Shown: positions 786 through 28,397 of the stretch, one piece after another
Position numbering within the stretch: the stretch's first letter is position 1
Layout: the number at the start of each line of letters is the position of its first letter
From: Streptococcus sp. DD12
Lineage (GTDB): Bacteria; Bacillota; Bacilli; Lactobacillales; Streptococcaceae
Direction of reading: 5' to 3'
NCBI RefSeq assembly: GCF_001578885.1
Contig: NZ_KQ969496.1
Coordinates: 62,001 to 126,000, forward strand
DNA: 64,000 bases
Position numbers and translations under genes: made by a program
The notes under the pieces: generated by a model
Database searches by the model: none
What the model saw: only the letters and a program-made list of their open reading frames with translations
What the model was told of the DNA's origin: nothing

Positions 786-3700
786 ATGCAAGAAAAAGTT
801 CATTACAAATTACATAAGGTCAAAAAGACCTGGGTTGCCCTAGCGGTGTCGAGCCTGTCGATTGCTGCCTTGGGGGCGGCAGGGGAAACGACTGTTTCCG
901 CAGACCAGGTCAACACCTGGACGGGAAATGGGTTTAACATCAGTGTGTCAACAGATGATAATACCACCACACGGGTAGTGGTCAATGGGGTGGAAGTTGC
1001 TCCGACAACGACCAACCAAGCGACCAACAACACAACACCGACAAATACGACTGCTACTGACACAACGGCCAACCAAGGGCAAGCAACAGCCACTCCAGCT
1101 GATACGGCGACTGCCGATAATACAGCGACCAACGCCGTCAGCGACAAGCAAGCCAGCCCTGCCATCACAGAGGCCAATTCTCAGGCAACACCTACAGCGA
1201 CTGATGCGAGTCCGTCAGCGCCAGCTGATAGCCAGTCACGGATTGAAAATGACCGTCAAGCGACTTCAGCGTCAACAGACCATATCAAAACAGAAGATGG
1301 CAAGTCTTACTACGTGACGGATTACGGCAATCGTCGGAAAAACTACCTCCTAGAAGACGGCGACAAGACCTATTACTTCGGTCGTGATGGCGCCCAAGTA
1401 GACCAGACGGTTAGTCCTGTTTTGGATGAAAATGCTCCCGTAACGACTTATAGCCAAGGTAATCGCTTGGTGAACACGGATGAAAAGAGCATTGAAGCAG
1501 TTGATACCTTTCTGACCGCAGATTCTTGGTATCGCCCTAAAGCCATCCTCACCAATGGGACAACTTGGACAGACTCTAGTGAGAATGACCTTCGTCCTCT
1601 CTTGATGGTCTGGTGGCCAGACACTAGCACCCAAGTAGCCTATCTGGATTTTATGAAAAAATCTGGTTTAGGGGCAACGACTGCTTACTCAGCTTCATCA
1701 GATAGTGCCACCCTAAACAAGGCGGCCCAAGAAGTCCAAGCCAAAATCGAACAACGCATCAGCAGTGAAGGCAGTACCCAATGGTTGCGGACGGCCATGT
1801 CTGACTTTGTCAAAACGCAAAACCAGTGGAATATAAATTCCGAAAACAAGGGCAATGACCATCTGCAGGGCGGTCAATTGGTCTTTGAAAATGCGCAAGG
1901 AAAAACTGCTGGGCGGACGGATTATGCCAATTCCAACTATCGCCTGCTCAATCGGACACCAACCAACCAAACTGGGACACCAAAATATTTCGATGACCGT
2001 TCTCTGGGAGGGAACGAGTTCCTCTTGGCAAATGACATCGATAACTCAAACCCAGCCGTCCAAGCAGAACAGCTCAACTGGCTTCATTACATTATGAACA
2101 TTGGTTCCATCATGGCCAATGATGCTAGCGCTAACTTTGACGGTGTGCGTGTCGATGCCTTAGACAATGTCGATGCCGACCTCTTGCAAATTGCTTCAGA
2201 CTATTTCAAACAGGTTTATGGCGTCGATGAGAGCCAAGCCAAAGCCATTGCCCATCTATCTATCTTTGAAGGTTGGTCTTACAATGACCCGCTTTACAAT
2301 AAAGACCACAAGGGAGCGCAACTAGCTATTGACAATCACTTGCGTGAAGCCTTGATCAATCGCTTCCTCTGGTCGCCAGGTTCACGGAGTTTGGACATGA
2401 AGGTTCTCATGACCAACAGTTTGAGCCCCCGCAATGCCGAGGCCAAAAATTCCGAACGGACGGCCAACTACCTCTTTGTCCGTGCCCATGATTCTGAGGT
2501 GCAGTCAGTTATTCAGACCATTGTTCAACAAAATATCAATCCTTCTGTGACTGGCTACCACATGACTCTGGATGAAATCAAGCAAGCCTTCAAGATTTAC
2601 AATGAAGACATGAAAAAGACCGACAAGCGGTACACCCAGTACAATATCCCGGCGGCCTACGCTTTCATGTTGACCAACAAAGATACGATTACCCGTGTCT
2701 ACTATGGCGATGTCTTCACTGATGACGGGCATTATATGGCTGAGAAGTCGCCATACTACGATGCCTTGGATGCCTTGATGAAAGCTCGGGTTAAATACGT
2801 GGCAGGTGGTCAAGACATGACTGTGCAAACCGTCGGGTCTGGGGATTTGCTGACGTCTGTCCGTTATGGTAAAGGGGCTGATAGCGTGTCTGACCAAGGT
2901 ACAGCAGAAACACGTACCCAAGGGATGGCTCTTTTGATGAGTAATAATACCAAGCTCAACCTCGGTGGCAACACCCATACCGTTGCCATGGGAGCCGCCC
3001 ACAAAAATCAAGCCTATCGCCCACTCTTATTGAGTCGTGCAGATGGCTTGACGGTATACAATGCAGACAAAGATGTCCCATCTAACCTGATTAAGTACAC
3101 AGATGGCAATGGGAATCTGACTTTCACAGCCAGCGATGTTTTTGGTGTGTCTAATCCTCAGGTTTCTGGTTATCTGGCTGTCTGGGTGCCTGTCGGTGCC
3201 AGCGATGACCAAGATGCAAGAACCAAGGCGACGGATGTCAAAAATAGTAGCGGTCTCGTCTATGAGTCCAATGCTGCTTTGGATTCTCAGTTGATTTTCG
3301 AAGGTTTTTCTAACTTCCAAGCCTTTGCCGAAAACGAAAGCCAATACATGAACAAGATCATTCCACAAAAGATTGACTTGCTCAAGTCTTGGGGCGTGAC
3401 ATCCTTTGAAATGCCGCCACAATACGTCTCTAGCCAAGACGGCACATTCTTGGACTCGATCATTGACAACGGCTACGCCTTTAGTGACCGCTACGATATC
3501 GCCATGAGCAAGAACAACAAGTACGGTTCGCTGGATGATTTGCTAAATGCCATTCGTGCCCTGCATGCTGGCGGTATGTCCGTTATGGCGGACTGGGTTC
3601 CTGATCAGATTTATAGCCTGCCAGGCAAAGAAGTTGTGACCGCTTCACGTGCAGATGGCTATGGGAACCCACGCTCAGGTGCGAATATTTACCATTCTGC

Positions 3701-5381: not shown

Positions 5382-6782
5382 TTGTCCATTTTTAGACGCA
5401 AAAACACGAGCACAGAACGTACCGAGATGCATCGTCACCTCAAGTTGTGGGATTTGATTTTTCTTGGCTTGGGTTCCATGGTAGGAACGGGTATTTTCAC
5501 GGTGACAGGAACAGGGGCCGCCTTGTATGCTGGTCCAGGTCTCATCATCTCCATTATCATTGCTGCCATCGCAGTGGGAATTTCGGCACTTTTTTACGCC
5601 GAGTTTGCCTCTCGCATCCCAGCTAATGGCGGAGCCTATAGCTACACCTATGCGACCTTAGGAGAGTTTCCTGCCTGGTTGGTTTCTTGGTTTTTGATTT
5701 TAGAGTTTTTGATGGCTATCTCAAGTGTGGCCTCGGGTTGGGGCTCCTATTTAAAAGGGCTCTTGTCTAGCTTTGGCCTGACCTTGCCACCCGCGCTCAA
5801 TGGTACTTTCGACCCGAGTCAGGGGCATTTCATTGACCTCTTGCCAATTTTAGTAATGGTCTTTGTGACAGCGCTGGTGCTGACGGATGCCAAAGCTGTT
5901 TTACGCTTTAACACGAGTTTGGTTGTGTTGAAGTTTTCTGCCTTGGCCTTATTTATCTTAGTGGGACTCTTTTTCATTCAACCTAGCCACTGGAGCAATT
6001 TCACGCCCTTTGGAATGGGGACGGTCTTTGGCGGTCGAACAGGGATTCTGGGCGGGGCAGCCATTATGTTCTTTGCCTTTTTAGGCTTTGAATCCATTTC
6101 CATGACTGTGGATGAGGTCGAAAAACCACAAAAAGTCATTCCTCAGGGGATTATCATCTCTTTGACTATCGTTACCATTCTTTATACGGTGGTCACGCTG
6201 GTGCTGACAGGAATTGTTTCTTACACCAAGTTAAATGTTGATGATGCGGTGGCTTTCGCCCTTCGCCAGATTGGTATGGGTTGGGCAGCAAACTATGTCT
6301 CAGTGGTCGCTATCTTGACCTTGATTACCGTCTGCATTTCCATGACCTATGCCTTGGCAAGGACCATTTACAGTGTTAGCCGGGACGGTTTGTTACCACA
6401 AACTTTTAGCCAAGTCACTAAGCGACGCCGTATTCCTAAAAATGCCACCCTGCTGGTTGGCTTGACGGCTATGATTTGTGGGGGTGTTTTTCCTCTGGCA
6501 AGCATGGCTGAGTTTGTCAATATCGTGACCCTAGCCTATTTGGTCATCCTAGCTGTTGGTCTGATAGTTCTACGTAAGAGGGAGGGGCAACCCAAAGAAG
6601 GGCAGTTTAAAACACCTTGGGTACCCTTTTTACCAATCCTTTCGATTGTGATTTGCCTCTCCTTGATGAGTCAACTCCAGCCAGTCACCTGGCTAGCATT
6701 CGGTATTGCTGTCCTAGTGGGCTGTTTGATTTATGCCTTCTACGGCTACAGTCATTCGGCAGTTGCAGATAAAAAAGAATAG
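5382..6782 (+). CDS. APC-family amino acid permease (cationic amino acid transporter type)
   Basis: An integral membrane protein of about 466 residues with some 12 hydrophobic segments, and the APC hallmark GLGSMVGTGIFTVTG in the first membrane segment. FAEFASRIPANGGAYSY-like sequence and FFAFLGFESISMTVDEVEKP are typical of the CAT/YfnA-type branch, which imports amino acids by proton symport. The frame is open from a GTG at 5352, but a GAGGAA ribosome site at 5371-5376 sits 5 bases before an in-frame TTG at 5382. The protein from there begins MSIFRRKN, as many streptococcal relatives do, so TTG is chosen. It stands alone between its own promoter and terminator. The substrate is not readable. 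Confidence 0.88.
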   Translation: MSIFRRKNTSTERTEMHRHLKLWDLIFLGLGSMVGTGIFTVTGTGAALYAGPGLIISIIIAAIAVGISALFYAEFASRIPANGGAYSYTYATLGEFPAWLVSWFLILEFLMAISSVASGWGSYLKGLLSSFGLTLPPALNGTFDPSQGHFIDLLPILVMVFVTALVLTDAKAVLRFNTSLVVLKFSALALFILVGLFFIQPSHWSNFTPFGMGTVFGGRTGILGGAAIMFFAFLGFESISMTVDEVEKPQKVIPQGIIISLTIVTILYTVVTLVLTGIVSYTKLNVDDAVAFALRQIGMGWAANYVSVVAILTLITVCISMTYALARTIYSVSRDGLLPQTFSQVTKRRRIPKNATLLVGLTAMICGGVFPLASMAEFVNIVTLAYLVILAVGLIVLRKREGQPKEGQFKTPWVPFLPILSIVICLSLMSQLQPVTWLAFGIAVLVGCLIYAFYGYSHSAVADKKE

Positions 6783-6833
6783 GCTAGGTTCTTGCTATTG
6801 GCGACTAACCCATAAACAAACTTCATATACCTC

Positions 6834-6858
6834 AAAGAAGCGCAAGCTTCTTTTTTTT
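6834..6858 (+). terminator. Terminator after permease
   Basis: An 8-bp stem AAAGAAGC/GCTTCTTT with GCAA tetraloop runs into eight T residues. Confidence 0.85.
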
Positions 6859-6932
6859 GGCAAAAAATAAGGTAGATTTTCAAAATATTTACGAATAAAA
6901 AAGATGATGTGCTAGAGACGGTAAACACACAC

Positions 6933-7040
6933 ATGGTAAGTCTGCTGGCTTTAAAGGGGTTGAAGACTATGGCTTTGGTGACTTCTCGTTCGGCGGATGC
7001 TCAAGCTGAAGCAGGCAAAAAAGCACAAAAGAAGAAATAG
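6933..7040 (+). CDS. Small ORF upstream of the LXG gene, possible relic of an LXG-associated helper
   Basis: The frame encodes 35 residues from the ATG, ending SADAQAEAGKKAQKKK, and is open further upstream without a canonical start (back to 6876). Its stop TAG lies inside the Shine-Dalgarno region of the next gene, so the two would be translationally coupled. LXG effector genes are usually preceded by small helical helper genes, and the position and Lys/Ala-rich helical tail would fit the end of one. I do not recognise the protein, and it may be a truncated remnant rather than a working gene. Confidence 0.3.
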   Translation: MVSLLALKGLKTMALVTSRSADAQAEAGKKAQKKK

Positions 7041-7052
7041 GAGGACTCTCAT

Positions 7053-8103
7053 ATGGTAATGGTGACGGTTGATTCTAAGGCAAGTTTAAATACAATTGGG
7101 ACTAATGCCAAAACTGCGGCGACCTACTATCGGGATGCGACAACAGAAGCTGATCGTTCCTTTAAGATGAGAACAGAAGGTTCAGAAGGTTCAGCGCTTT
7201 CGGCCTTTGTGGAGAAAATCAACGCTTTATCAACCTATGTCTTTGCGGTTTACCCTGACCTACTTGACAGACTGGGAGAAGAACTTGTAGGCTATTCTGG
7301 GAAGCTAGAAGGTGAGGGGTTTGATGAGGTGACTTATACTAGTGATGCAGGTATTTCCAATATCCAAGATTGGCTAAAGCGTCAACGGTATGATAGTATC
7401 GAAAGAAAAGAAAAAACGAGAAGCGCTAGACAATCTTGCAAAGGATGCCCTAGTATTGGCAACCAATACAGTGGTCCCGGGTTTCTCAAGTGTTGTTTCG
7501 CTGGCAAGTAGTATTTTTGAGTCCGGTAAACTAGGCTCAGTCGTATCATCTGGAAATGATTTGGCTGCTACGGTCATCGGAGAACAATACAGTAAGGTAT
7601 TGAGTGGCGGTGCCAAGGCTACGAGCAGATTGGCCAGTTATTTTGAAACATTAGGAGATATTGATGATGAAAAGATGGGGCTTTCCAATCAAGCAAAGGG
7701 AGACCTGTTTGGTGTTGGTGGCAGTAGCGTCACCGTCGATGATACGACCACTAGTTCTCAAAGTAATATCGCTTTTGACTTGTCTGCTAGCCTACAATCC
7801 TATGACTTCCAAGAAAATGGGGTCAGGGGTTATATCTTGAGGCAGTATGATGGAAAAGCTTTGGAGAGATTTGATGACGGAATAAAACAATCTGATATAT
7901 CTCAAGACATGCGGGATATCTTAACAGGAAATAGTGATAAACCCAACACTGAGGTCGGACCGGATGTCATCAAGGATAGTCTTGAGAGTATGGATGCAAA
8001 TATAAGTAGGTATGAAATGGGAGACAATCACTGGACGACCAAGTATTATGACAATAATTTCCTCTGGTTTGACGAACTGACTGGAAATATCGAAAAGAAA
8101 TGA
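7053..8103 (+). pseudogene. LXG-like type VII secretion effector, disrupted by a +1 frameshift
   Basis: AGGAGG precedes the ATG at 7053. The first frame gives an N-terminal helical domain (residues 1-117) with SALSAFVEKINAL and LEGEGFDEVTY segments typical of LXG/WXG-superfamily effectors. This frame then runs off to a stop at 7509-7511. From about 7417 the neighbouring +1 frame continues the helix (REALDNLAKDALVLATN) and a glycine-rich C-terminal domain to the stop at 8101-8103. The shift coincides with a run of six A at 7411-7416; with five A the two halves fuse into one protein of about 350 residues. The C-terminus ends WTTKYYDNNFLWFDELTGN and has no toxin motif I recognise. It may be a true pseudogene, a slippage-switched gene or a sequencing error. 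Confidence 0.7.
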
Positions 8104-25320: not shown

Positions 25321-27822
25321 ATGGCAACTTACAATCACAAAGAAATTGAGCCCAAGTGGCAAAAATACTGGGCTGACCATCACACCTTTAAGACAGGAAC
25401 AGATGCCCAAAAACCCAACTTTTATGCACTTGACATGTTCCCCTACCCATCTGGAGCAGGTCTGCACGTAGGCCACCCAGAAGGCTACACCGCGACGGAT
25501 ATTCTCAGCCGTTACAAGCGTGCCCAAGGCTACAACGTCCTTCACCCCATGGGTTGGGATGCCTTTGGTTTGCCTGCAGAGCAATACGCTATGGATACAG
25601 GGAATGACCCTGCGGACTTTACAGCGGAAAACATTGCCAACTTCAAACGTCAAATCAATGCGCTTGGTTTCTCCTATGACTGGGACCGTGAAGTCAATAC
25701 GACAGACCCCAACTACTACAAGTGGACCCAGTGGATTTTCACCAAGCTTTACGAAAAAGGCTTGGCCTACGAGGCGGAAGTTCCGGTCAACTGGGTGGAA
25801 GAATTGGGAACAGCTATCGCCAACGAAGAAGTGCTTCCAGACGGAACATCTGAACGTGGGGGCTACCCTGTCGTTCGTAAACCCATGCGCCAATGGATGC
25901 TGAAGATTACAGCTTACGCAGAGCGCTTGCTCAATGACTTGGATGAGTTGGATTGGCCAGAGTCTATCAAGGACATGCAACGCAACTGGATCGGAAAATC
26001 AACTGGTGCCAATGTCACCTTTAAAGTGAAAGGGACAGATAAGGAATTTACCGTCTTTACGACACGTCCGGATACCCTTTTTGGTGCGACCTTCACTGTT
26101 TTGGCGCCTGAGCATGAGCTGGTGGATGCCATCACAAGTCCTGAACAAGCTGAGGCTGTTGCTGACTACAAACACCAAGCCAGCCTCAAATCTGACTTGG
26201 CTCGGACCGACCTTGCCAAGGAAAAAACAGGAGTTTGGACAGGTGCTTATGCAGTTAACCCTGTCAATGGCAAAGAAATCCCTATCTGGATTGCGGACTA
26301 TGTTCTTGCTAGTTACGGAACAGGTGCTGTCATGGCCGTACCTGCCCACGACGAGCGTGACTGGGAATTTGCTAAACAGTTTGGTCTTCCAATCATCGAA
26401 GTCCTAGAAGGTGGTAATGTAGCAGAAGCTGCCTATACAGAAGACGGCCTTCACGTCAACTCTGGCTTCTTGGATGGCTTAAATAAAGAAGAAGCGATTG
26501 CGAAGATTGTTGCTTGGCTGGAAGAAAAAGGCTGCGGTCAAGAAAAAATCACCTACCGTCTCCGTGACTGGCTCTTTAGCCGTCAACGTTACTGGGGAGA
26601 ACCTATTCCAATTATTCATTGGGAAGATGGGACTTCAACAGCTGTTCCAGAAAGTGAACTCCCACTTGTCTTGCCAGTCACCAAGGACATCCGCCCTTCA
26701 GGCACTGGGGAAAGTCCATTGGCTAACTTGACCGACTGGCTGGAAGTGACTCGTGAAGATGGGGTCAAGGGTCGCCGTGAGACCAATACCATGCCACAAT
26801 GGGCAGGTTCCAGTTGGTATTACCTTCGCTATATCGACCCACATAATACGGAAAAATTGGCCGATGAGGACCTCCTCAAGGCTTGGCTTCCTGTTGATAT
26901 CTATGTCGGTGGTGCGGAGCACGCCGTGCTTCACTTGCTTTACGCGCGTTTCTGGCACAAATTCCTCTATGACCTTGGTGTCGTTCCAACTAAGGAACCC
27001 TTCCAAAAACTCTTTAACCAAGGAATGATTTTGGGTACCAGCTACCGGGACCACCGTGGGGCTCTTGTGGCGACTGACAAGGTTGAAAAGCGGGACGGTT
27101 CCTTCTTCCATGTGGAAACAGGAGAAGAGTTGGAGCAAGCACCTGCTAAGATGTCTAAATCGCTTAAAAACGTGGTCAACCCAGACGATGTGGTCGACCA
27201 ATACGGTGCGGATACCCTTCGGGTCTATGAAATGTTCATGGGGCCACTGGATGCTTCCATCGCTTGGTCTGAAGAAGGTCTGGAAGGAAGTCGTAAATTC
27301 CTTGACCGTGTGTACCGTTTGCTCACAAGTAAAGAGATTGTTGCGGAAAATAGCGGCGCTCTGGACAAGGTCTACAACGAAACCGTCAAAGCTGTCACCG
27401 AGCAAATTGAATCCATGAAGTTCAACACGGCTATCGCCCAACTCATGGTCTTTGTCAATGCAGCCAACAAGGAAGACGAGCTCTACGTGGACTATGCCAA
27501 AGGCTTTATCCAATTGCTTGCCCCATTTGCCCCTCACTTGGCAGAAGAACTCTGGCAAACCGTGGCAGGGACAGGCGAGTCCATCTCTTATGTGGCTTGG
27601 CCAAGATGGGATGAAAGCAAACTCGTCGAAGACGAAATCGAAATCGTCGTTCAAATCAAGGGTAAAGTCCGTGCTAAACTAACCGTAGCCAAAGACCTTT
27701 CCCGTGAAGAATTGCAAGAAGTGGCTCTGGCTGACGAAAAAGTGCAAGCAGAGATTGCGGGCAAGGAAATCGTGAAAGTGATTGCGGTACCAAATAAATT
27801 GGTTAATATTGTTGTAAAATAA
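25321..27822 (+). CDS. leuS: Leucyl-tRNA synthetase
   Basis: An 833-residue class I synthetase charging tRNA-Leu. The HIGH motif appears as [18 protein letters not shown] (about residue 45), the editing (CP1) domain contains [12 protein letters not shown] and VPAHDERD, and the KMSKS motif is [14 protein letters not shown]. The C-terminus ends [12 protein letters not shown] lies 9 bases before the ATG. The gene is complete and ends at 27822. Two extra copies of its last codons follow at 84- and 85-base spacing (see the repeat entry). Confidence 0.97.
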
Positions 27823-27991
27823 CCAACTTATTTGTTCATTTCCAACCTCAAACAGTTTCACAAACTGTTTGAGCCAACTAAACTCGTTAACATTGTCGTT
27901 AAATAACGAGTTTATTAGCCCTATCTACCACCTTCAATGGTCCACTGGATTATTGAAGCTAACCAAACTTGTGAATATTGTCGTGACATAA
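27790..27991 (+). repeat. Three-copy array of the leuS 3' end with intervening hairpins
   Basis: Copy 1 (27790-27822) is the true end of leuS and encodes [10 protein letters not shown]-stop. Copy 2 (27874-27906) encodes [10 protein letters not shown]-stop and copy 3 (27959-27991) LTKLVNIVVT-stop, with many synonymous base differences. Between copies 1 and 2, CTCAAACAGTTT-CAC-AAACTGTTTGAG forms a perfect 12-bp stem with a 3-base loop (27847-27873). Between copies 2 and 3, CTTCAATGGTCC pairs with GGATTATTGAAG (27932-27958) as 12 RNA pairs, two of them G-U, again with a 3-base loop. Neither hairpin has a T run. The unit is about 84 bp. Confidence 0.8.
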
Positions 27992-28001
27992 GAAATGAAA
28001 G

Positions 28002-28023
28002 GAAGCCTACAGGCTTCTTTTTT
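28002..28023 (+). terminator. leuS terminator
   Basis: GAAGCC-TACA-GGCTTC followed by six T, 11 bases after the third leuS-tail copy. Confidence 0.85.
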
Positions 28024-28082
28024 AACATAAGGAGCTAGCAATGCCTGTAAAGGAATTTGAACAAAGAACTGGAGGACTGCTC

Positions 28083-28316
28083 ATGACAGACAAAGAAAAA
28101 CAAATCCAACGTGCACAGGATTTTCAAGCTCTGCACAAGAAGGGTGATTTGCTCCTGCTACCCAATATCTAGAATGTCGGTTCGGCCCTGGTTTTTGAAA
28201 AGGAGGGGGCAAAAGCTCTGGCTACTTCTAGTGCTGGTATCGCTTTTGACCTAGGCTATCCGGATGGTGAGGATATTACCTTACGGGTAAAAAAGGAAAT
28301 GTGGAGACCCAGTTAA
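28083..28316 (+). pseudogene. Remnant of an isocitrate lyase/PEP mutase family gene
   Basis: The frame reads MTDKEKQIQRAQDFQALHKK, then LLLLPNI, a TAG stop at 28170-28172 where relatives have Trp or a similar residue, then NVGSALVFEKEG, ALATSSAGIAFDLGYPDGED. This is the N-terminal quarter of the PEP mutase/isocitrate lyase-like fold. It breaks down after about 75 codons and ends at 28316. The rest of a roughly 250-residue gene is missing. Nothing else is seen between here and the inverted repeat at 28398. Confidence 0.7.
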
Positions 28317-28397
28317 AACGAGTTGAGGACATCCAGTCTGTGAGCTTGAAATGAGACCATGCCATGAAAAGTCCATCTTAAATAACTTTCAAAAAAC

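Follow-up and report, generated by a model that had tools for sequence, protein, structure and literature searches.

Tandem hairpin units with repeated gene ends behind leuS in Streptococcus sp. DD12 and other streptococci

The end of leuS, the gene encoding leucyl-tRNA synthetase, is present three times in succession in a 64,000-nucleotide stretch of the genome of Streptococcus sp. DD12 (contig NZ_KQ969496.1, positions 62,001 to 126,000; the whole stretch is called the window below, and coordinates are those of the window). The explanation that we consider probable is that this is an array of two small, gene-free and site-restricted units, each of which would enter leuS at a proline codon and supply a new gene end, the old end being displaced downstream. 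The data support the anatomy of the units, the gene end that they carry, the sharp point of entry, the displaced native end, a patchy turnover, and a kinship of the linker and second hairpin of the unit with dispersed modules of the type found in BOX repeats; that the units are mobile is a step that we infer from the comparison of sequences.

The leuS array in Streptococcus sp. DD12

The leuS gene lies at 25321-27822 on the forward strand, to which all the features of the array are also assigned, and in the list of open reading frames (ORFs) it encodes 833 amino acids, the C-terminus having close relatives in streptococcal genomes. An earlier, sequence-only reading of the window had noted that the gene end recurs at +84 and +85 bases, and this is borne out by the lysine codons at 27796, 27880 and 27965. 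The recurring text had been given as the last ten codons plus the stop; the recurrence stands but the length does not, as the shared text is 7-9 codons.

Each unit consists, in order, of a gene end, a larger hairpin across that gene end (H1), a linker and a second hairpin (H2), and is 84 or 85 bp long in the window. The left arm of H1 is leuS coding sequence and the right arm starts at the stop codon. Unit 1, which is of type A, spans 84 bp (27790-27873) and begins with the real end of leuS and its stop (gene-end copy 1, 27790-27822). Its H1 (27791-27834), found in the fold and by covariation over 28 units, pairs leuS codons at 27791-27805 with 27820-27834 around a 14-nt loop made up of the last codons. 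The conserved linker GTTCATTTCCAAC, of BOX-module type, follows at 27834-27846 and is matched at 27834-27876 (E 2.6e-13) by R1, a covariance model of linker and H2 built from 18 sequences of leuS units and other streptococcal modules. H2 of this unit (27847-27873) has 12 Watson-Crick pairs, between 27847-27858 and 27862-27873, with a 3-nt loop, and was given by a repeat finder, by the fold and by R1.

Unit 2, of type B, has the same parts in 85 bp (27874-27958): gene-end copy 2 with its stop (27874-27906), an H1 (27875-27918) in which 27875-27889 pairs with 27904-27918 in the fold, a conserved linker (27919-27931, R1 match at 27919-27961, E 2.3e-10) and an H2 (27932-27958) in which 27932-27943 pairs with 27947-27958. 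This H2 was seen in the sequence and in the fold and is matched by R1, and is absent from the repeat-finder list that gave the H2 of unit 1. Both of the hairpins with 12 pairs and a 3-nt loop that had been placed between the copies are present, the second including two G-T pairs. Behind unit 2 lies copy 3 (27959-27991), read here as the displaced former end of leuS, which encodes LTKLVNIVVT-stop, with a K to T change giving KLVNIVVT.

The fold of 27780-28030, in which both H1 hairpins appear nearly complete, has an energy of -68.8 kcal/mol, compared with -40.6 +/- 4.1 kcal/mol for dinucleotide shuffles (z -7.0, 0 of 200 as low). Neither H2 has the T-run of an intrinsic terminator directly behind its stem, which is followed by CCAACT (27874) or CTAACC (27959). 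A hairpin with a T-run, resembling an intrinsic terminator, does follow the array at 28002-28023, and because of it the array probably lies in the 3' untranslated region (UTR) of leuS. This hairpin was seen in the sequence and in the fold, and a consensus scan lists the palindrome on the reverse strand only.

Distribution and turnover among streptococci

The region downstream of leuS was compared across streptococci using leuS 3' regions drawn from a genome collection and from genus-wide searches. Removal of duplicates, of eight non-streptococcal loci and of 24 loci without a parsable leuS end (19 dispersed-module loci, L072, L073, L178, L241 and L273) left 195 distinct streptococcal regions, of which 71 were filled, with a second gene end 40-110 nt past the stop; this set is enriched for filled regions, and for type B most of all, since one search used a type-B query and some loci were picked for having two matches. 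A less biased figure comes from an even sample of the genus, in which 43 of 139 genomes were filled (second copy 40-215 nt past the stop) and a further 8 of the 147 sampled gave no state. With units in this many regions and genomes the repeated copies are not an assembly quirk or a product of chance. A pattern describing the gene end was found in 239 of 284 streptococci. Among the matches listed the reversed control gave 0 in every row, the pattern occurred no more than three times per genome, and where two or more coordinates were given they lay within about 1.4 kb.

The first unit in the 71 filled regions was of type A in 30, of type B in 33 and of other types in 8. Arrays were found with A or B alone, with A followed by B, and with B followed by A (L018, L133, L136), and further variants of the unit occur in S. 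suis and other species. The A-then-B order of the window was also found in an independent genome (L121, G281). Units are mostly 84-94 bp long; lengths of 71, 99 and 232 bp were also met. The 99-bp type, present in L166 and L169 (G170 and G061), has a gene-end repeat of 39 bp which reaches through GCGGTACC, and is perhaps the nearest to the ancestral junction. L172 (G013) holds a mosaic array with 232 bp between the gene-end copies and two unlike hairpin modules, one of them followed by AGCGGTACC as in L166. Pieces of the leuS end are also present in records of Listeria, Enterococcus and Acinetobacter.

On a maximum-likelihood tree of 44 leuS genes, built without the last codons, the state of the locus (empty, A or B) changes 17 times compared with a mean of 18.4 for shuffled labels, and 45 of 200 shuffles were as low. 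Single states behave similarly, with 15 changes for empty (15.0 when shuffled), 9 for A (10.7) and 9 for B (8.4). The unit is gained and lost faster than leuS lineages last.

The gene end carried by the unit

Among type-A strains 17 of 30 have CCA as the proline codon of the functional leuS end, and among type-B strains 30 of 33 have GTTAAA as the V-K codons; each of these forms occurs in 3 of 43 empty strains of the mitis-like group, the filled sets spanning all species and not the mitis-like strains only. At the left border, in 91 distinct mitis-like rows, 9 of the 12 sites that vary at or beyond the third base of the proline codon were associated with unit type at p<0.01, compared with 1 of 43 variable sites upstream of that base. 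In 40 genomes with 2.4 kb of leuS no association was found between unit type and leuS sites lying between the valine codon and 1920 bp upstream of it, the 0-60 bp interval included (all p above 0.13). At the right border the CCAAC that precedes the displaced copy hardly varies (30-33 of 34 rows per base), and in the same 34 rows the displaced copy and its flank vary with at most a weak tie to unit type. Given that unit type is tied to the codons from the proline on and barely to those upstream, and that its scatter on the tree is like random, the unit appears to bring a gene end with it and to enter at a single point, the old end being displaced and decaying.

Selection for pairing in H1 was considered as the sole cause of the unit-specific codons and was ruled out, because three of the associated sites, the third bases of the I, V and V codons, lie unpaired in the H1 loop and also track unit type.

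The third copy and its counterparts elsewhere have the features of a displaced native end. When first and last copies were compared with the native end found in empty strains whose flank matches, which could be done for the 29 of 49 regions with a close flank, the last copy was closer in 18, with 6 ties (p=0.008). Displaced copies depart from KLVNIVVK at 0.061 per codon and functional ends at 0.018 (82 and 195 copies), a 3.4-fold difference; the departures in displaced copies are partly frame-shifting insertions or deletions, and one of the 195 first copies was misparsed (RMVNQPL), which raises the rate for functional ends and so biases the comparison against displacement. With regard to a target-site duplication such as BOX elements would make, direct repeats of 33-39 bp are present at leuS, but one copy travels with the unit. 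The 3' end of the gene is re-supplied at the point of insertion, as in elements of the integrase type.

Fold and covariation of the hairpins

H1 has 12.8 of 15 pairs at the 82 junctions that precede a unit, compared with 5.2 of 15 at 71 last copies. Swapping the right arms of H1 among units gave 11.9 pairs, and none of 5000 swaps was as high as the real arrangement. The sequence-only reading had also noted compensating changes in the hairpins, and in relatives these are found in H2 and in H1 as well. For this 31 diverse units were picked, after 3 of 82 unit intervals had fallen outside a length filter, and exclusion of L038, L167 and L239 left 28. Among these, 13 of 27 pairs have both partners changed (0 of 500 shuffles) and double changes occupy 64 cells compared with 25.6 expected (0 of 500 shuffles), figures which overstate the strength of covariation because the counts ignore relatedness, with A and B forming two clusters, and which come from shuffles that leave relatedness in. 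The signal is lost when the partners are slid. As the stems covary, the fold of the unit probably is or was under selection, and covariation does not separate RNA from DNA as the level at which it was selected. No match near the gathering score was found for the leuS units in Rfam.

Kinship with BOX-type repeats

A search with a type-B unit as query matched H2-like places in many other streptococci, lying in dispersed repeats and in arrays whose H1 has a short loop (GCGAAC..GTTCGC) and whose period is 54-55 nt. R1 matched 254 of 279 streptococci and, under a tighter cut-off, 257 of 335 genomes from the family as a whole, nine of which (G295, G297, G307, G308, G310 and G314-G317) belong to two other genera; in these wide searches the best 23 or 19 candidates were scored per genome, and the per-genome counts are to be read as "at least". 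Four mitis/pneumoniae-like genomes hold 37-64 copies each. H1-linker-H2 modules were recognised by motif in 9 of 16 mitis/pneumoniae-like loci that were fetched, with a 45-bp period where two adjoin, and these arrays took no part in the training of R1. The sequence ending them is presumably that of pneumococcal BOX.

The leuS unit follows the plan of a boxB-type module, i.e. a hairpin, a conserved linker and a hairpin, and on sequence its hairpin part can be classed as a module of the BOX type. By the defining parts the leuS unit is no BOX element, because it is without boxA, boxC and terminal inverted repeats, none of which was found in the leuS arrays, and because it occupies one site only. 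The arrays pass straight from leuS to the host flank and the terminator-like hairpin. Neither the gene-end pattern nor R1 in the window genome indicated dispersal over many intergenic sites, R1 giving two matches in that genome under strict filters, both at leuS. Among 115 dispersed modules, a set which leans to well-scoring matches, leuS-like flanking repeats were found only in four mutated leuS units (L187, L127, L002, L089) and in a module array (L292), the next-best flanking alignments being short or gapped.

In the portion of Croucher et al. (2011; PMC3049150) used here, BOX elements are described as modular, with boxB in tandem and with slow transposition, BOX-type relatives are reported from S. 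suis, and ISSpn2 is proposed as the mobiliser from the similarity of terminal repeats, without this being shown. leuS is unmentioned in that portion, and in the portion used of PMC4494060 it appears once, within a list of housekeeping genes. In a literature search on streptococci that paired leuS with integration, islands or BOX repeats, the leuS units were not found described.

Proposed mechanism and points against it

The unit would be a BOX-type module, with H1, a TATTTCCAAC-like linker and H2, in which the 3' end of leuS, together with its stop, has taken the place of the H1 loop. On entry at the proline codon the unit's own version of the last codons would become the new end of leuS, and the former end would be pushed some 84 bp downstream into the 3' UTR before the terminator, where it would be free to decay. 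Because the gene end is re-supplied, insertions would be harmless, so that units could pile up (A, B, A+B, B+A), and they could be lost again. The effect on the host would be close to neutral, and as insertion would be cost-free an essential gene could commonly hold the unit. The unit would be brought in by an enzyme acting in trans and reading the hairpins or a short core, since a tract exchanged by recombination should take adjacent leuS sites along, which is not what is seen; homologous recombination may then reshuffle arrays, as mosaics with breakpoints inside the core suggest. A more specific proposal, which we make tentatively and regard as open to real doubt, is that of a structure-defined mobile cassette of ~84 bp, gene-free save for an occasional whole gene inside, which homes to one leuS codon across streptococci and is moved in trans by an enzyme that reads H1 and H2, perhaps that of BOX.

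Several observations weigh against this mechanism. Homologous recombination alone could in principle give scattered states over a long time, and some leuS ends have breaks inside the core (L017, L032, L095, L101) which ordinary recombination could make too. The abrupt loss of association at the border rests on few sites, and the comparison drew on one genome per species; there are weak signals (p 0.012-0.022) at three bases before the valine codon in the mitis-like rows, one site at -130, outside the border, gave p 0.003, and two sites within the displaced copies gave p 0.02-0.03. The first copy was the closer to the native end in 5 of 29 regions. One of five covariation measures, that of further pair types, was not above shuffles (25 compared with 24.4), and the unit is without boxA and boxC. 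In addition, no integrase-bearing element was found at leuS in the loci examined, and the window genome has six phage-integrase matches, none of them on the leuS contig, and no Y1 transposase match. Y1 transposase was not associated with units in the even sample (26 of 43 filled and 56 of 96 empty genomes, p=0.85), and no carried unit was found in viral contigs, searched with exact patterns, or in plasmids.

Mobiliser, carrier and cargo

Y1 transposase was rejected as the mobiliser on that lack of association. The units of 84-85 bp hold no gene, and hence no recombinase gene of their own. A regular expression for tyrosine and serine recombinase motifs, a weak one which divergent enzymes escape, flagged 11 ORFs over the loci. 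Nine were scanned with Pfam and gave one integrase (L162), seven ORFs of other families (Rce1-like, NmrA-like, adhesin, DUF2600) and one without a match; L037 and L079, look-alikes of scanned ORFs, lay outside that scan. The L162 integrase (2353-3501), a tyrosine integrase by Pfam, belongs to a prophage at another site, 1.7 kb downstream of leuS. A pattern scan of viral contigs for an integrase element at leuS yielded two matches, both of them prophages away from leuS, and the sole phage match to a unit is a partial one of 43 nt in one S. suis phage record.

A gene with a RelA/SpoT domain (Pfam RelA_SpoT; PADLOC PDC-S33, a candidate defence system) stands directly behind the stop of a leuS-end copy in 2 of 279 genomes, at L017 6601-7674 (the same locus as L085, G128) and at L164 (G215). 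At E up to 1e-30 its relatives occur in 5 of the 279, comprising the two at leuS and three with 43% identity, two of which are on another contig than leuS. Both cases at leuS may stem from one event beside an A unit. The gene was first read as a sign of integron-like cassette traffic, which was dropped: with only 2 of 279 genomes carrying it at leuS, possibly through one event, cargo is rare. In a strain of S. pseudopneumoniae (L016) a 272-aa ORF without a Pfam or PADLOC match lies directly behind leuS (6507-7325), preceded by a hairpin with a T-run that is unlike the usual terminator of relatives. In the window itself, 28041-28360 is a short stretch resembling a broken PEP-mutase/isocitrate-lyase-like gene, with an internal stop between NI and NVGSA.

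Alternative explanations

The alternative that survives best, and which we think rather improbable, is that each unit type goes back to one ancient insertion and has spread only by natural transformation and homologous recombination across leuS, without any mobility of its own, with arrays growing and shrinking by unequal crossing over between gene-end copies. DNA uptake occurs in streptococci of this group. In many species types A and B are met at one and the same place, and core-breakpoint mosaics such as L032, L095 and L101 are as such a history would have them. Unequal crossover is also among the proposed causes of variation in tandem arrays such as boxB in the portion of PMC3049150 used here. 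The explanation is weakened because tracts should carry neighbouring sites along, whereas the association with unit type ends over a few bases at the proline codon and the adjoining 60 bp show none.

It is unlikely that the copies are att scars, i.e. that larger tyrosine-integrase elements entered with the leuS 3' end as their attB and were then deleted, leaving attL/attR pairs, although the 33-39 bp direct repeats of the gene 3' end, the inverted arms around a core, the re-supplied gene end and the cargo between copies in two genomes are all features that such scars would have. Units of mostly 84-94 bp with a conserved and covarying H2 are not random deletion remnants, H2 is part of a dispersed repeat family, and no integrase-bearing element lies at leuS in the loci read. 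The sequence-only reading had offered integrations at the leuS 3' end, each re-supplying the gene end as att sites do, as one of two readings. Of this the insertions remain, with the last ~10 codons carried in, a sharp entry, empty sites and a native-like displaced copy; the integrase-bearing element that it had proposed to look for between the copies was found at leuS in none of the loci searched, and the BOX-type nature of the hairpin part had been missed, as had the larger hairpin H1.

Its other reading, that the folded unit matters, holds to the extent that the stems covary. That the unit is a cis-acting RNA element kept for leuS, with hairpins near the stop and in the 3' UTR that protect or tune the mRNA, is nevertheless very unlikely. 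The strong fold, the covariation of both stems and the position between the stop and the terminator-like hairpin would suit such an element, but patchy presence argues against a needed role for leuS: the unit is missing from 96 of the 139 genomes of the even sample, its scatter on the leuS tree is like that of shuffled labels, and the same module occurs at many unrelated places. Plain tandem duplication or slippage of the leuS end with its hairpin is extremely unlikely, for although the copies are in head-to-tail order and one unit type (L166, L169), with its 39-bp repeat, is near to a straight duplication, there is usually no hairpin unit behind the last copy, and the copies show synonymous differences specific to the unit, each pairing with its own right arm. 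The synonymous divergence between copies, already held against a simple tandem duplication in the sequence-only reading, keeps that force and would arise from the different versions of the gene end that the unit types bring.

Comparison with known systems and significance

The BOX elements of S. pneumoniae and the BOX-type repeats of S. suis have the same H1-linker-H2 plan in the arrays read, are tandem with a variable number of modules and are mainly non-coding. As for the leuS units, a mobiliser has only been proposed for them, this being ISSpn2 in the portion of PMC3049150 used here. The leuS units differ in being without boxA, boxC and terminal inverted repeats, in having the 3' end of a gene inside H1 and in occupying one site, and their length, mostly 84-94 bp, compares with periods of 45 and 54-55 bp in the BOX-type arrays seen.

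Three other systems may be compared. The att sites of tyrosine integrases at gene 3' ends share with the leuS units a re-supplied gene end, direct repeats, inverted arms at a short core and empty sites, whereas the leuS units, mostly 84-94 bp long, have no integrase and usually no cargo. Integron gene cassettes are likewise small units in ordered arrays with hairpin-forming recombination sites, to which the rare gene cargo at leuS adds a further likeness; the usual leuS unit, unlike a cassette, is gene-free, and its site is the end of a housekeeping gene. REP/BIME palindromes with Y1 transposases are also short hairpin pairs with conserved linkers and are mobilised in trans, as the leuS unit would be, but the window genome has no Y1 match and the leuS unit has a strict single-site target with capture of a gene end.

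The unit would be far smaller than any integrative element known to us. The module of BOX-type repeats is present in most of the streptococci searched, and in the portion of PMC3049150 used here their mobiliser stands as a proposal. Having a single fixed codon for entry, together with marker codons and known empty sites, the leuS unit offers an assay for movement that dispersed copies cannot. It would also be a clear case of a tiny repeat able to live in coding DNA because it supplies the gene end that would otherwise be missing.

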